Assembly (NCBI GenBank): GCA_009703055.1
Contig: WLGW01000005.1
Coordinates: 1 to 47,692, forward strand
Reading direction: 5' to 3'
DNA length: 47,692 nucleotides
Source of the DNA: Actinomycetota bacterium
GTDB lineage: Bacteria > Actinomycetota > Acidimicrobiia > Acidimicrobiales > Ilumatobacteraceae
The notes beneath the pieces are model-generated. The model was not told the DNA's origin. It made no database searches and saw only the letters and a program-made list of their open reading frames with translations. Position numbers and translations under genes: made by a program. Numbering within the stretch: position 1 is the first letter of the stretch; each line of letters starts with the position of its first letter. Positions 5,893-24,513 of this stretch are shown here, piece after piece.

Positions 5893-8049
5893 GTGTCAAC
5901 TCATAGTTCTTCCACCTTGTCCGAAGCAGCCTCAAAGGAATTGCTCGCGGCGTATGGCGTGCCTTTCGCCGCTGAACTTAAAGTCTTTACCGCTGCAGAT
6001 GCAGTGGAAGCCGCCCATCAGTTGGGGTATCCCGTTGTTGCAAAACTTGGTGGGGACAAGATTGCCCACAAGACAGAGCGCGGCCTCGTTCGTCTTCGTT
6101 TGTCGGACGCATCAGCGGTGGAGAAAGCCGCAACAGAGCTTTTTGCAGCAGCCACGGCCGACGACGGTGAAGTTCATGTGCTCGTGGCCCCCATGGTCTC
6201 TGGCTCACGCGAGTTGATCGCCGGACTTCTCGTTGACCAGCAGTTCGGCCCGACAGTGATGCTGGGCGTCGGAGGCATCATGGCGGAAGTCATTAAGGAC
6301 GTTGCTTTCAGACCAGCTCCGCTGACGAAAGAGATTGCACTCGACATGGTGAAGTCACTGCGCATGCAAGGACTCTTGGAAGAGTTCCGCGGTGAGACCG
6401 CTGTCAACGTTGATCAGGTCGTTGCATGCCTGATGGGACTCTCAGCCGTTGCTGCTGATCGAACAGACATTGTCTCTGTCGATATCAATCCACTCATCGT
6501 GAAAAGTGATGGCTCGATTGTTGCTGTCGATGCTCTAGTCGAATTAGGTCAACGCTCCACAAACGAGGGGACTGTTCGGCCTGCCTACTCGCAGGAGCAG
6601 TTCATGGCCCTGTTTGAGCCACGTGGCGTGCTTGTCACCGGGGCATCAACTCACCCAGGCAAGTTCGGTTTTGTATCTCTCCACAACATTCTTGCGAGCG
6701 GATACAACGGTGCTGTTTTTGGGACGAATCTTCAGGGCGAAGAAGTACTCGGAATTAAGACTGTTGCTGACATTGCTTCGCTTCCCGATGGACAGATTGA
6801 CCTCGTATTCGTATGCACTCCTGCTTCAGCGAATCCAGATTTGTTGCGTGCTTGTGCACAGAAAGGTGTGAAGGCAGCCTTTCTCACATCGGCGGGTTAC
6901 GGAGAAGCCGGCGATGAAGGGCGCAAGTTGGAAGATGAACTCATTGCACTTGCAGACGAGTTGGGAATTCTGCTTGCAGGACCAAACGGTCAGGGCGTGG
7001 TGTCAACACCTGCACATCTGTGTGCACAAATTGTTGCTCCTTATCCACCAGCAGGTGCAATCGCAGTTGCAAGTCAGAGTGGCAACTTTGTTTCCAGCTT
7101 CCTCAACTATGCACGACAGACCGGTGTGGGAATTAGTCGCGCAGTTTCAGCTGGCAATGCGGCGGCGCTCGGGGTTGCAGATCTCATCGAGTGGTACGGA
7201 ACAGACGATGCGACACGTGTATCGCTTGCATATGTCGAAGGCATCAGCGACGGAGCGGGCCTGATGAAGAGACTTTCTCAGGCAGCGAAGAAGAAGCCTG
7301 TCGTATTAGTCAAGGGCGGTGCAACAGAAAATGGCGCGCGCGCAGCTGCAAGCCACACAGGTGCTTTGGCTGCAAACGATTCCATCTTCGACGGCGCATG
7401 TCGAGCAGGTGGCATCTCACGCGCAGCAACAGTGGAAGAAGCGTTTGAAGCTGCTGCGACATTCGCAACACAGCCTCTTCCGAAGGGACCGAAGGTCATC
7501 ATCTTGACCACAGCTGGTGGGTGGGGAGTCGTGACGAGCGATGCAATCGCGCGAGACGGTTCTCTTGAACTCATGGAACTCCCGGCTGACCTTCAAAAGC
7601 AGATTGATACAAAGCTTCCACCACGATGGAGTCGCAATAATCCCGTTGACTGTGCCGGTGGCGAAACGCGTGACACCATTCCTGAAGTTATGGAGATGAT
7701 TGCATCGCACCCAGAAGTTGATGCAGTGATTTATCTTGGCCTCGGAATTCAAGCCAACCAGGCCCGTCTCATGCGAGAAGGACGATTCCATCCAGACCAC
7801 GGTCTTGAACGCATTGTTGAGTATCACGAGCGTCAAGATGCGCGATTTGCGCAAGCAGCACATGAGTTGTCACTTCGAACAGGCAAGCCAATTCTCGTCG
7901 CAACTGAGTTAGCGGTTGCAGATCCAGAGAACGCAGGAGTTGTCGCTGTTCGTGAATCAGGTCGACTGTGTTACGCAAGCGGTAACAGGGCAGTAGCGGC
8001 ACTCGGTCATCTCTATCGTTACGCAGTTCACACAGGAGTGGCTCGTTAA
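5893..8049 (+). CDS. NDP-forming acyl-CoA synthetase family protein (ATP-grasp, CoA-binding and succinyl-CoA ligase-like domains)
   Basis: N-terminal ATP-grasp (SKELLAAYGVPFAAE...YPVVAKLGGDKIAHKTERG), then CoA-binding (FEPRGVLVTGASTHPGKFGF), then AASHTGALAANDSIFDGACRAGG with the phosphohistidine-type SHTGA. Confidence 0.9.
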   Translation: MSTHSSSTLSEAASKELLAAYGVPFAAELKVFTAADAVEAAHQLGYPVVAKLGGDKIAHKTERGLVRLRLSDASAVEKAATELFAAATADDGEVHVLVAPMVSGSRELIAGLLVDQQFGPTVMLGVGGIMAEVIKDVAFRPAPLTKEIALDMVKSLRMQGLLEEFRGETAVNVDQVVACLMGLSAVAADRTDIVSVDINPLIVKSDGSIVAVDALVELGQRSTNEGTVRPAYSQEQFMALFEPRGVLVTGASTHPGKFGFVSLHNILASGYNGAVFGTNLQGEEVLGIKTVADIASLPDGQIDLVFVCTPASANPDLLRACAQKGVKAAFLTSAGYGEAGDEGRKLEDELIALADELGILLAGPNGQGVVSTPAHLCAQIVAPYPPAGAIAVASQSGNFVSSFLNYARQTGVGISRAVSAGNAAALGVADLIEWYGTDDATRVSLAYVEGISDGAGLMKRLSQAAKKKPVVLVKGGATENGARAAASHTGALAANDSIFDGACRAGGISRAATVEEAFEAAATFATQPLPKGPKVIILTTAGGWGVVTSDAIARDGSLELMELPADLQKQIDTKLPPRWSRNNPVDCAGGETRDTIPEVMEMIASHPEVDAVIYLGLGIQANQARLMREGRFHPDHGLERIVEYHERQDARFAQAAHELSLRTGKPILVATELAVADPENAGVVAVRESGRLCYASGNRAVAALGHLYRYAVHTGVAR

Positions 8050-19341: not shown

Positions 19342-20946
19342 GTGACGGTCTACGTTCCTGAGGAATTTACTGATACTGAATCCGACATTCTTCGTCGGTA
19401 TTTTACGAACCTTGACCAGCCAGTTTTTGCGCTTGTCAACCTTCCTGAGGTTGTGAAGGGAGCCCTGTTCGCGCGTTACAGCCGCAGTCCACGTAGCTTG
19501 CGCCGCCTCTTCCTGGATGAGTTCGTTAACGATCTCGAGATCAAGGGCGATCAGGCTGTTGATGCAACTGTGGGCGTTGATCGCGCAGAATCTCTGTACG
19601 AGAAAGTTTTCGTTGAATACGGCGATGACTCAGTTGCGCAGTTGGGTGGGGTTCACCTCGCCTGTGAGCAAGCATCGAATATTCTCACCAAGATTCTCGA
19701 GTGGGGCCGCTTAATGAGCTACCTCGAGCAATCAACTCGCTACATCGCATATGACGATCGTCTTGGCGGTCGGTACCGCTACTACCGCGACCCAGATCTC
19801 CTAGAGGGCAAATTCGGCACCCGCTATGTCGGCGATATGGATCGCATGTTCGATTCGTACAGTTCTCTTGCTGAAATAGTCACTCAACACATCCGGACAA
19901 CAGTGCCCAAAGGTGAGGGTGATAGCGACTTCGTGTATCGCCAAGCGACACGAGCAAAAGCTCTCGATGCAGTCCGAGGAATGCTCCCAGCATCAGCGTT
20001 GTCCAACGTTGGCATCTACGGAAGTGGACAGGCTTTTGAACAACTGTTGCTTCGCATGCGCGCACACCCATTGCCAGAAGCTCGTGTATACGCCGACATG
20101 ATGTTGACCGAGTTGAGGAAAGTTATTCCTTCCTTCTTGCGTCGCGTCGATGTCGTCGAGCGTGGTGGCAAGTGGTCCGAGTACTTGTCGACAAACACAG
20201 CGAACATGAATTCTCTCGTCGACAACTTGTTTGGCGACTCCATTGCAACAGACGTTGAAGAAGTCACTCTCGTTGATTTTGATCCGGATGGCGAGAACAA
20301 AATTGTTGCGGCGGCGTGTTATGCATTCTCACATCTTCCCGAATCGCAGATTCTTGCGAAGGTAGAGAAGATGACAACCGAAGAGAAGTCAGAGATTCTT
20401 CGCAACTACGTCGGTGATCGTGAGAATCGTCGCCACAGGCCAGGTCGTGCCTTCGAACGCACTGACTATCGTTTCGACGTTCTTTCTGACTACGGCGCAT
20501 TCCGAGACATGCAACGCCACCGTCTTCTCACGATTGAGTGGCAGCCACTTACTCCGTACCACGGCTTTGCTCGACCAGATCTTGTTGATGCTGCAGGTGC
20601 TGCAGAACAGTTCAACGAGGTCATGGATCGTTCAGCGGCACTTTATGACGCGTTGGTAGGGGACCACCCAAGTCAAGCCTCATACGCCGTCTCAATGGCC
20701 TATCGCATCAGATATTCGATGCAGTTCAACGCACGCGAAGCAATGCACATGCTCGAATTGCGCTCAAGTCCGCAAGGACATCCGTCGTACCGTCGTGTTG
20801 CTCTTGAAATGCACCGTCTCATCGCCGAGAAGGCTGGTCATCGGGCCATTGCAAGTGCAATGACTCACATGACGACTGAAGCACCGGAGCTCGAGAGACT
20901 CGATTCTGAGCGCCGTGCTGAAGCTCGCCGCACCGGACGTTCATAG
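19342..20946 (+). CDS. Tandem ThyX-like protein (FAD-dependent thymidylate synthase family, long form)
   Basis: 534 aa with two ThyX-like halves: RLMSYLEQSTRYI in the first and DMQRHRLLTIEWQPLTPY in the second. Confidence 0.8.
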   Translation: MTVYVPEEFTDTESDILRRYFTNLDQPVFALVNLPEVVKGALFARYSRSPRSLRRLFLDEFVNDLEIKGDQAVDATVGVDRAESLYEKVFVEYGDDSVAQLGGVHLACEQASNILTKILEWGRLMSYLEQSTRYIAYDDRLGGRYRYYRDPDLLEGKFGTRYVGDMDRMFDSYSSLAEIVTQHIRTTVPKGEGDSDFVYRQATRAKALDAVRGMLPASALSNVGIYGSGQAFEQLLLRMRAHPLPEARVYADMMLTELRKVIPSFLRRVDVVERGGKWSEYLSTNTANMNSLVDNLFGDSIATDVEEVTLVDFDPDGENKIVAAACYAFSHLPESQILAKVEKMTTEEKSEILRNYVGDRENRRHRPGRAFERTDYRFDVLSDYGAFRDMQRHRLLTIEWQPLTPYHGFARPDLVDAAGAAEQFNEVMDRSAALYDALVGDHPSQASYAVSMAYRIRYSMQFNAREAMHMLELRSSPQGHPSYRRVALEMHRLIAEKAGHRAIASAMTHMTTEAPELERLDSERRAEARRTGRS

Positions 20947-21064: not shown

Positions 21065-21526
21065 GTGGCAAAAGATGAGATTGATCCAGAAGATATGGAC
21101 GAACTCGAGATTGAAGGCGAGGACGAACTCGACATTCTCGAAGACGACCTTGATGGAGACGACCCACTTCTTAGTGACGACGACGACGCCATTGACGACG
21201 AGGACGATGACGACTCGATGAGCGCACCGGTTGTTCGAAAGAAGACCGACGAAGAAGAAGATGACGACGACATGGTTGCCCCCGACGATGTCGAAGAGGA
21301 CCTTGCCGAGATCCTGAAAGATCGTCTTGCCTCAGAAGACCTTCCGGCCGAAGAGGACGAAGTTGTTGAAACCGACGAGCGCACGGGTGCCGATGATGCT
21401 CTGCAACCAAAGCGAGCAGATGAGACCTTGTGCAATCTGTGCTTCATGTTGGTGCGAAAGAACACAACGATGTGTCCGATGGGCGACGACGACTGCCCAG
21501 TGGTCGTAAAGAAAAAGAAGAAGTGA
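21065..21526 (+). CDS. Very acidic protein with C-terminal Cys motif and poly-Lys tail (possibly DUF4193-like)
   Basis: Asp/Glu-rich N-terminus; ADETLCNLCFMLVRKNTTMCPMGDDDCPVVVKKKKK; SD-like ggagg upstream of the GTG. Confidence 0.8.
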   Translation: MAKDEIDPEDMDELEIEGEDELDILEDDLDGDDPLLSDDDDAIDDEDDDDSMSAPVVRKKTDEEEDDDDMVAPDDVEEDLAEILKDRLASEDLPAEEDEVVETDERTGADDALQPKRADETLCNLCFMLVRKNTTMCPMGDDDCPVVVKKKKK

Positions 21527-21712: not shown

Positions 21713-22123
21713 ATGGTTGGTTCATCATTTGTTCGCACAGCAATTGACACTGATGCAACCGCAATCGCAGCACATCGTTCTGCTTCGCTCACCGAATCAG
21801 ACTTGTATCGTGGGCATGTTCGCAACCTCAGCAGTAGTGGCAGCGAGCTATCTCTTGTTGCTGGGTTCGGCACCACTGTCATGGCGAGTCTGACTGCGCG
21901 TATTGATAAGACTCACGCTGTGATCCAGCATGTTTTTGTTGTACCCGAATCACGAGAAGTGGGACTCGGCGATTCATTAATTCATACGTTGATCACAGAA
22001 CTTCGTTCAAGAGGTGTGCAATTTATCGAGGCCCAAGCACTGCCAGGTGACCGCGGAATGAAGAATCTTTTTGAACGTCATGGGCTCATCGCCCAGACAA
22101 TCATTGTGGGGAAGTCGCTCTAG
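21713..22123 (+). CDS. GNAT family N-acetyltransferase
   Basis: VIQHVFVVPESREVGLGDSLIHTLITELRSRGVQFIEAQALPGDRGMKNLFERHGL. Confidence 0.85.
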   Translation: MVGSSFVRTAIDTDATAIAAHRSASLTESDLYRGHVRNLSSSGSELSLVAGFGTTVMASLTARIDKTHAVIQHVFVVPESREVGLGDSLIHTLITELRSRGVQFIEAQALPGDRGMKNLFERHGLIAQTIIVGKSL

Positions 22124-22902
22124 CGACCTTTCCACTGAGGGGCACGCTTCTCAATGAAAGCAGTGAGGCCCTCTTTCGTGTCTTCTGATTTCAGAATTGG
22201 CGCAAACTCTGCGTTGGTCATGTTGATCAGGTTCTCATCACTCTCGTACGCCGATGCAAGAACAACGCGACGACTTGCAGCGACTGCCATTGGTGCTGAT
22301 GTAGCAATCTTGTTTGCGAGCGCCAGAGCAGCATCCAATGCCTCTCCTGGACCCACAAGATGATTCACAAGCCCGAGCTGGTGTGCACGTTCTGCCGAGA
22401 GGGGATCGCCGGTCAGAATTACTTCCATAGCGACCGACTTGCCGATTGCACGAGGAAGACGGAACAGTCCTCCCGCACCGGCGATGAGGTTGCGCTTAAC
22501 TTCAGCGAGCCCGAACGATGAGCGAGTCGTTGCAATAACCATGTCGGAAGCAAGAACAATCTCGCATCCACCCGCAGTGGCTAGCCCATCAACAGCAGCG
22601 ATGATCGGCTTGTTGCGCTCGCGGTACACGAAACCAGCGAATCCTCCGCGCTTGGTACCCAGTGTTTGACCACCAGCACTCAATGCCTTGAGGTCCGCTC
22701 CTGCGCAGAACACAGGGGACTTGTGGCCTTCCGTATTGGCCGTCAGCACACCAGCCCAGACACCCTCTTCAGCCTCAAGACGGTCGATTGCATCTTCCAT
22801 CGCCTGTGCAACATCGTCATTGATGGCATTACGCGCATCCGGACGATTGAGAGTGATAATCGCGACCTGGCCGCGGACTTCGTATGTAACTAATTCAGCC
22901 AT
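22120..22902 (-). CDS. Enoyl-CoA hydratase/isomerase (crotonase) family
   Basis: VAIITLNRPDARNAIND, FCAGADLKALSAG, KPIIAAVDGLATAGGCEIVLASDMVIA; C-terminal FIEKRAPQWKGR. Confidence 0.96.
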   Translation of the reverse strand: MAELVTYEVRGQVAIITLNRPDARNAINDDVAQAMEDAIDRLEAEEGVWAGVLTANTEGHKSPVFCAGADLKALSAGGQTLGTKRGGFAGFVYRERNKPIIAAVDGLATAGGCEIVLASDMVIATTRSSFGLAEVKRNLIAGAGGLFRLPRAIGKSVAMEVILTGDPLSAERAHQLGLVNHLVGPGEALDAALALANKIATSAPMAVAASRRVVLASAYESDENLINMTNAEFAPILKSEDTKEGLTAFIEKRAPQWKGR

Positions 22903-22937
22903 AGGTGTCACCGTAGTGGCGACCACCGTGGCGAGGC

Positions 22938-24443
22938 CTATTCGGCTGAGTCAGCTTGTGGGGTTTCTGAAGCAGCAGCCTCGACTACTGGAGTCTCTAC
23001 TGCTGGAGCATCAGATACGGGAGTGTCGACTGCTGGAGTTTCAGCAACAGGTGCCTCTACTGATGGTGTTTCAGTAGCGCCTGCAGCAGGTGCGGCCGGT
23101 GCTTTAGGAGCCGATGCAGGCTTCGGTCCACTCGATGCAGGCTTTGGACCACGAGGAGCCTTGGCATCAGCAGACTTGTTCACATCAGCAGCACGCTTCT
23201 TAGGGTTTTTGTCCCCACGTGGCTGTTGCAACGGACGCGGTGGACGAGCCTTCGGATCAACCATCACGCCGAACAACGCTGCAAGTTGTGGCATCAACGG
23301 CCCGAGACGAGTCACCGTTTTCAAGAGGTCTTCAGACACCACTGTTGGTACAGCGGGCGGAAGAACTTTTCCATGAACAGGGGAGAAGGCCGCTGCTTCG
23401 AGCAATGTAATCCAACGCTCCGATGGAGCGTCAGCTGTCATGCCAGCAACGGTGGCATCAATCAGTTCAATTGCAAGTGCAGGCGGGAAGGGAACTCCGG
23501 CCTTTGGTGGCTGCGATGACAAACGCAATGCACGAACAACACGTCCCACCTTGGTGGCGGTCGCAATGTCTTCAAGCCAATTGCGAATTTCAGTTTCTTG
23601 ACGCACGACAAGCGCCTGCTTCATCTTTGCAACGAGACCACGTGTGGCTTCATCAATCGCTACGAGTTGGTCTGCAGAAACGACGATTGAACGCAAATCA
23701 CGAAGATCAATTTCTTCAATGATGGTCTCTGCCGAAAGGGCGCGGTCACGCCATTCAGCAACTCTGAGGCGTGGGAGCAACTGCTCAGCAATCTGGACGA
23801 TGCCATCTGCCGGCACCTTCTCGCGACCTTCTGCGACTGCCTGCTTGTTCTGCTCTTCAACAGCAGCACGAACCGCGGGCACGCCACCCATCAGAACCTT
23901 CTCTGCGATAGCGCGCTGAGCTTCGGGAAGTTCTGCAAGAACTGCATCAATATTCACACGACGTGGCTTGATGCGCTTTGGCTTTGGCCGCTGAGGCAAT
24001 TCTGGTGGAGTCTCAAAGAACGGACGACGAGGACGGTCTCCACGGCCTTCAGCACCTTCACGACGCTCACCACGAGGCTTGTCGCCATCACGGCGCTCTC
24101 CACGAGGTTTGTCACCATCGCGACGAGGACCACGGCGCTTGTCGCCGTCACGACCACCCTTCTTGCGAAGTTGCTGTGTCACTGCCTCAAAAGGCTTTTC
24201 AGAAGGAAGGATCTCAAGAAGCCCAGTGCGGGCCGCCTTCTGCTTCGGTGCACTGATCGAGAGAACTCGAGTTCCGTCAAGGTCTGATTCAACTTCAGCG
24301 CGAACGACATCCTTCACTGCGGTGCCTGCTGGCACCACTGAATCGGCAACGACACCCTTGGGCTGAAGCGCGCCTGCTGCGCGCCAAGTCCAAGTGCCAT
24401 CTTCGCGCTTGCTGGTGAGTTCGATCTCGATACGACGTGACAT
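22938..24443 (-). CDS. Uncharacterised protein: N-terminal beta-rich domain, Arg/Gly/Asp-rich basic repeat, helical core, Lys/Ala/Pro/Thr/Val-rich tail
   Basis: 501-aa uninterrupted ORF; (R)RDGDKPRGER repeats at about aa 96-137; C-terminal VEAPVAETPAVDTPVSDAPAVETPVVE. Confidence 0.85.
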   Translation of the reverse strand: MSRRIEIELTSKREDGTWTWRAAGALQPKGVVADSVVPAGTAVKDVVRAEVESDLDGTRVLSISAPKQKAARTGLLEILPSEKPFEAVTQQLRKKGGRDGDKRRGPRRDGDKPRGERRDGDKPRGERREGAEGRGDRPRRPFFETPPELPQRPKPKRIKPRRVNIDAVLAELPEAQRAIAEKVLMGGVPAVRAAVEEQNKQAVAEGREKVPADGIVQIAEQLLPRLRVAEWRDRALSAETIIEEIDLRDLRSIVVSADQLVAIDEATRGLVAKMKQALVVRQETEIRNWLEDIATATKVGRVVRALRLSSQPPKAGVPFPPALAIELIDATVAGMTADAPSERWITLLEAAAFSPVHGKVLPPAVPTVVSEDLLKTVTRLGPLMPQLAALFGVMVDPKARPPRPLQQPRGDKNPKKRAADVNKSADAKAPRGPKPASSGPKPASAPKAPAAPAAGATETPSVEAPVAETPAVDTPVSDAPAVETPVVEAAASETPQADSAE

Positions 24444-24513
24444 AGGGGTTATACGGTATCCCCGTTTTACCCTTGACCATCAAGAACGCGCCCATCATCA
24501 CTAGTCTTCGCCC

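Follow-up and report, generated by a model that had tools for sequence, protein, structure and literature searches.

What is encoded by the 501-codon reading frame at 22938-24443 of the window, i.e. the whole 47,692-nt stretch of DNA analysed here, and what might its product do? It had been described from the letters alone as an RNA-binding-like protein of four regions that belongs to no named family.

The reading frame and its conservation

Read on the plus strand, 22938-24443 contains eight stops; the ORF is a minus-strand one (Table 1), and its coordinates and translation had been given correctly in the original prediction, with the strand left unstated. A total of 42 orthologues of 417-604 aa can be aligned with the 501-aa protein and whole-protein dN/dS against four genus relatives is 0.046-0.113, establishing that the ORF is a real gene under strong purifying selection. 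Among the closest relatives the differences are nearly all synonymous.

An AlphaFold2 model based on 42 natural orthologues has two confident parts, residues 1-66 (pLDDT ~92) and 163-390 (pLDDT ~96), while confidence is low from ~70 to 140 and beyond ~410, in line with disorder. All four of the regions first described are present, namely a beta-rich N-terminal domain (1-66), a basic repeat (~96-142), a helical core (163-390) and an A/P/E/T/V tail (~413-501), and the model backs both folded parts. Mean pairwise identity is 63% in the N-domain, 56% in the core, 44% in the linker and 26% in the tail (region 413-501, dN/dS 0.14-0.24), and among genus relatives dN/dS is 0.03-0.14 for the N-domain and 0.026-0.065 for the core. 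The repeat and the tail, which first drew the eye, are the least conserved parts of the protein, whereas the N-domain and core are the conserved ones. Gene fusions were also considered as a functional clue, but the long frames, checked in six of eight loci, consist of an extra tail or upstream frame and bring no partner domain.

Table 1. Positions of the gene, its parts and adjoining features in the window
Feature	Position	Strand	Remarks
Whole gene	22938..24443	(-)	501 aa + stop; ATG 24443..24441, stop 22940..22938
Putative -10 element TACCGT, ends 9 nt before ATG	24453..24458	(-)	GATACCGT-like; putative leaderless-type promoter
N-terminal domain, residues 1-66	24246..24443	(-)	Predicted five-stranded cold-shock/OB-like fold (AlphaFold2 pLDDT ~92-95; Foldseek); most conserved part, 63% identity
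Motif DGTWTWR, residues 15-21, within and just ahead of strand 2	24381..24401	(-)	D15, G16, W18, W20, R21 invariant in 38 N-domains
R/G/D/P-rich basic linker, predicted disordered, residues 96-142	24018..24158	(-)	10-residue repeats RDGDKPRGER; mean net charge +7.8
All-helical core, residues 163-392	23268..23957	(-)	pLDDT ~96; sequence and fold searches without relative
Core motif DLRDLRS, residues 246-252	23688..23708	(-)	D249, L250, R251 invariant
Core motif GRVVRALRLSSQPPKAG, conserved basic loop, residues 300-316	23496..23546	(-)	R301 and A305 invariant
Basic, partly disordered stretch after core, residues 393-440	23124..23267	(-)	Net +8 in window protein
Acidic low-complexity A/P/E/T/V tail, residues 441-501	22941..23123	(-)	Poorly conserved
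Crotonase/enoyl-CoA hydratase gene, adjoining, co-directional	22120..22926	(-)	Syntenic neighbour; probably outside the function

Family and distribution

No Pfam or NCBIfam model matches the 501-aa protein at E <= 1, and a scan of each of the 42 orthologues at E <= 10 returned scattered chance matches only, bearing out the statement that no named family could be recognised; as regards family models, "truly undescribed" was an accurate description. In 84,980 species genomes scanned, 65 loci were found, all consistent with Acidimicrobiia, and every one of 32 near-complete relatives carries the gene. In a class sample of 197 genomes the gene is present in all 79 order-level genomes, the window's own included, in one copy where the assembly allows, and is absent from the 118 genomes outside the order save for one marginal match (E 7e-4, around residues 320-403), which was rejected as spurious. 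A core-only search of the class (150 genomes) found no match outside the order; in a phylum sample of 150 genomes, N-domain-only and core-only profiles each hit the same 10, all in the order, and neither matched the remaining 140. Both parts are therefore order-specific at profile sensitivity. Taxonomic distribution had been named as a check in the original prediction, and the result is an order-specific, single-copy, near-universal protein of one Acidimicrobiales-type order, whose presence in 79/79 order-level and 32/32 near-complete genomes argues for a core rather than an accessory function.

The protein represents a new family, so far without a name and confined to one order. Hu, Cha and Gao (2018, PMC5962788) surveyed conserved signature proteins that are hypothetical and confined to Acidimicrobiia, and the 501-aa protein shares both properties. 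Compared by lengths and descriptions, it seems to be missing from Table 2 of that survey, in which the five lineage-wide proteins have 99-226 aa versus 417-604 aa for the present family. The gene matters because it belongs to the core of an entire actinobacterial order that is ecologically abundant, in fresh and marine waters, soil and acidic waters, and because it has no name and is missing from Pfam and NCBIfam despite strong purifying selection.

Several records titled "Bifidobacterium breve" (L020, L024, L025, L045 and L048) also carry the order-specific gene. Most of these loci keep the common neighbours, so the titles look wrong and the records are probably mislabelled MAGs.

The N-terminal domain

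Five strands are predicted in the N-domain (2-12, 17-22, 30-33, 46-54 and 57-63; AlphaFold2, pLDDT > 90) and the same strands are kept when the domain is modelled alone. In Foldseek searches of the PDB, cold-shock domains rank first for both the full model and the separate N-domain model. The best match is CspA 2l15 (probability 1.00, TMt 0.69-0.70, rmsd 2.6-2.7, 14% identity, E 0.068 and 0.048), and later matches are YBX1, Lin28b and Bacillus Csp structures, with Rho and IF-1 lower down. Meanwhile, no E-value for the N-domain against the PDB reaches 0.001 (best 0.048), PF00313 has no match in the window protein or any of the 42 orthologues at E <= 10, hhalign of the N-domain against Csp sequences gives 0.3%, i.e. 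no profile link, and PDB sequence searches return just de novo trefoils and chance matches. An RNA-binding type of layout, as first suggested, is plausible insofar as the N-domain is predicted to adopt a cold-shock/OB fold, but sequence profiles do not bear out homology to the cold-shock family; the Foldseek comparison proposed for both folded parts brought the N-domain together with cold-shock structures (E 0.05-0.07) but gave no convincing match for the core. The domain is best termed a "cold-shock-like OB fold by prediction" rather than "a cold-shock domain".

The RNP1 (KGFGFI) and RNP2 (VFVHF) consensus motifs are not found in the N-domain, which instead has an invariant DGxWTWR and a strand-3 region PKGVV/L. 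DGTWTWR may be the counterpart of RNP1, a correspondence drawn outside any tool alignment. Besides the motif residues in Table 1, the invariant N-domain positions include A23-A25, P28 and G30. In common with cold-shock proteins such as CspA and CspB are a predicted OB barrel with five strands and ~66 residues and aromatics in strand 2; unlike them, the present protein carries, beyond its barrel, a basic linker, a large helical core and an acidic tail in the same chain, and it has neither a sequence-profile match to PF00313 nor its consensus motifs.

The linker and tail

The linker is encoded by a tandem array with a 10-residue, 30-bp period (TRF 24058-24154, 3.2 copies, 76% matches), and its period-10 self-match is 23 of 36 residues, compared with a mean of 6.7 and a maximum of 17 in 5,000 shuffles. 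Its composition is 31% R, 18% G, 15% D and 13% P. Of what would be expected of a condensate-forming protein, as the layout first suggested, disorder and a mixed-charge composition alone are seen. Across orthologues the linker ranges from 33 to 92 aa, with the R/G/D/P-rich composition kept and a net charge of +6 to +11, i.e. basic in all of them, and such variable length with constant basic charge is as expected for a flexible electrostatic tether. The repeat is no RGG box of the kind known from RNA-binding proteins of eukaryotes: RGG is absent from the window protein's linker, and aromatics are near zero (mean 0.17 per linker). The tail is acidic on average in the orthologues and drifts in sequence.

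In YBX1 and Lin28 a cold-shock domain is extended by disordered RG-rich or zinc-knuckle regions. The present protein resembles them in joining a cold-shock-like barrel to a basic disordered region, but YBX1 and Lin28 are eukaryotic and have no helical core, and its own linker consists of R/D/G/P repeats without RGG or aromatics. As modelled, the architecture would be a variation on the OB/cold-shock-like barrel with a disordered basic region.

The helical core

About ten helices are predicted in the core by AlphaFold2. Foldseek against the PDB returned helical matches only (probability <= 0.25), a structural search against viral models returned nothing, and sequence comparison of the core with the PDB found no relative; the modelled core may be a new fold. 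Its invariant positions include W231, D233, D249-R251, R268, W289 and R301.

Gene neighbourhood

The gene is divergent from a hexapeptide (gamma-carbonic-anhydrase-like) gene, the crotonase gene is next on the same strand, and convergent GNAT and ThyX-like genes follow. Among the 56 loci in the set, the crotonase cluster is kept in 48, GNAT in 47 and the ThyX-like gene in 39. At most loci the crotonase gene adjoins on the same strand, yet an operon function shared with it is not supported: in Microthrixaceae-like loci (L037, L039, L043, L045 and L059) the gap to the crotonase is ~650 bp, and in L037 an opposite-strand HAD-phosphatase-like ORF (about 6387-7050) lies between the two genes. The widely kept gene order and the Microthrixaceae-like gap together show that the neighbourhood reveals vertical inheritance and no pathway.

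Proposed function

The protein is proposed, at about even confidence, to be a housekeeping protein, order-specific and single-copy, that binds nucleic acid, most likely as an RNA-binding or RNA-chaperone-type factor. Nucleic-acid binding is suggested by the first rank of cold-shock domains in Foldseek, the confidence of the N-domain model (pLDDT ~92-95), the basic linker, the near-universality of the gene and its low dN/dS. Counted against RNA binding are the lack of any Foldseek E < 0.001 or sequence-profile link to cold-shock proteins, the fact that proteins or sugars are ligands of OB folds as well, and neighbours (crotonase, GNAT, ThyX-like and hexapeptide protein) that are not RNA genes. 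At -1 to -2, the net charge of the N-domain lies between roughly neutral and slightly acidic, which is not unusual among cold-shock proteins but lends no positive support.

In the proposed mechanism single-stranded RNA would be gripped, with little sequence specificity, by the OB barrel, which contains the conserved strand with DGTWTWR, together with the basic R/G/D linker. The helical core would either dimerise or dock on the ribosome, RNA polymerase or degradosome as its partner, and the acidic tail would tune solubility or compete for the basic linker. The core given this role has numerous invariant positions, and no enzyme family is detectable in it. Canonical cold-shock proteins (PF00313) occur in 179 of the 197 class genomes, on which grounds their replacement by the present protein was rejected; since they remain in most genomes, it would be an additional factor. 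The window's own genome shows none but is only ~79% complete.

OB and cold-shock folds bind ssDNA as well as RNA, and the structural matches include the RNA-binding domain of Rho, so that a DNA- or RNA-polymerase-associated transcription factor, with the OB domain on ssDNA or the nascent transcript and the core on RNA polymerase, has to be weighed; no RNAP-binding motif was recognised in the protein, and this reading is considered unlikely. The near-neutral N-domain, the metabolic genes nearby and a core that resembles only HEAT-like scaffolds (symplekin and STAG1, weakly, probability <= 0.25) would instead suit a structural or protein-protein adaptor in the divisome, the envelope or a metabolic scaffold, in which proteins would bind to the OB barrel, the core would serve as scaffold and the R/D-rich linker would act only as a spacer. 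Such an adaptor is doubtful, however, as a conserved, strongly basic linker with a cold-shock-type barrel is unusual in a pure scaffold, and the model shows no evident signal or membrane segment. Finally, it is highly improbable that the protein is a divergent, lineage-specific version of the DUF349 protein (PF03993) of Actinomycetes, which is likewise actinobacterial, mostly helical and without assigned function, and is absent from the whole class: the DLRDLRS helix of the core is similar by eye, but hhalign against actinobacterial DUF349 proteins gives a probability of 0.2%, i.e. no profile similarity, PF03993 matches no member, and the distribution differs, DUF349 being also absent from orders without the present protein so that the two do not alternate.

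If the RNA-binding reading is true, the protein would represent a new bacterial RNA-binding architecture in a phylum whose global RNA chaperones are poorly known, and the helical core would be a new domain family, open to modelling now and to structure solution. The boldest form of this reading is a long shot, namely a general RNA chaperone or translation factor that defines the order by combining a cold-shock-like barrel with a new helical fold, perhaps in a role that Hfq/ProQ-type proteins have elsewhere or acting on leaderless mRNAs, its own included.

Transcription start

A TANNNT element ends 8 or 9 nt upstream of the start in 37 of 41 loci, where 1.5 are expected by shuffling; spacings of 7-10 nt were tested and every hit fell at 8 or 9. 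An SD-like sequence precedes the start in only 3 of the 41. From the position of TANNNT and the rarity of SD-like sequences, we infer a leaderless transcript that is probably conserved across the order. The same TANNNT signal is found at the ThyX-like gene in 27 of 39 loci and only rarely at other neighbours.

In the window the ThyX-like protein (19342-20946, plus strand) has 534 aa, roughly double the length usual for ThyX. Two of its stretches match PF02511, its TIGR02170 score is weak (43 bits; cut-off 88), and it is regarded as a divergent, order-conserved, putative ThyX-like protein. Also on the plus strand, 21065-21526 encodes a very acidic, D/E-rich protein of 153 aa, which has no Pfam or NCBIfam match and ends in a possible zinc-binding Cys motif (CNLCFMLVRKNTTMCPMGDDDCP).
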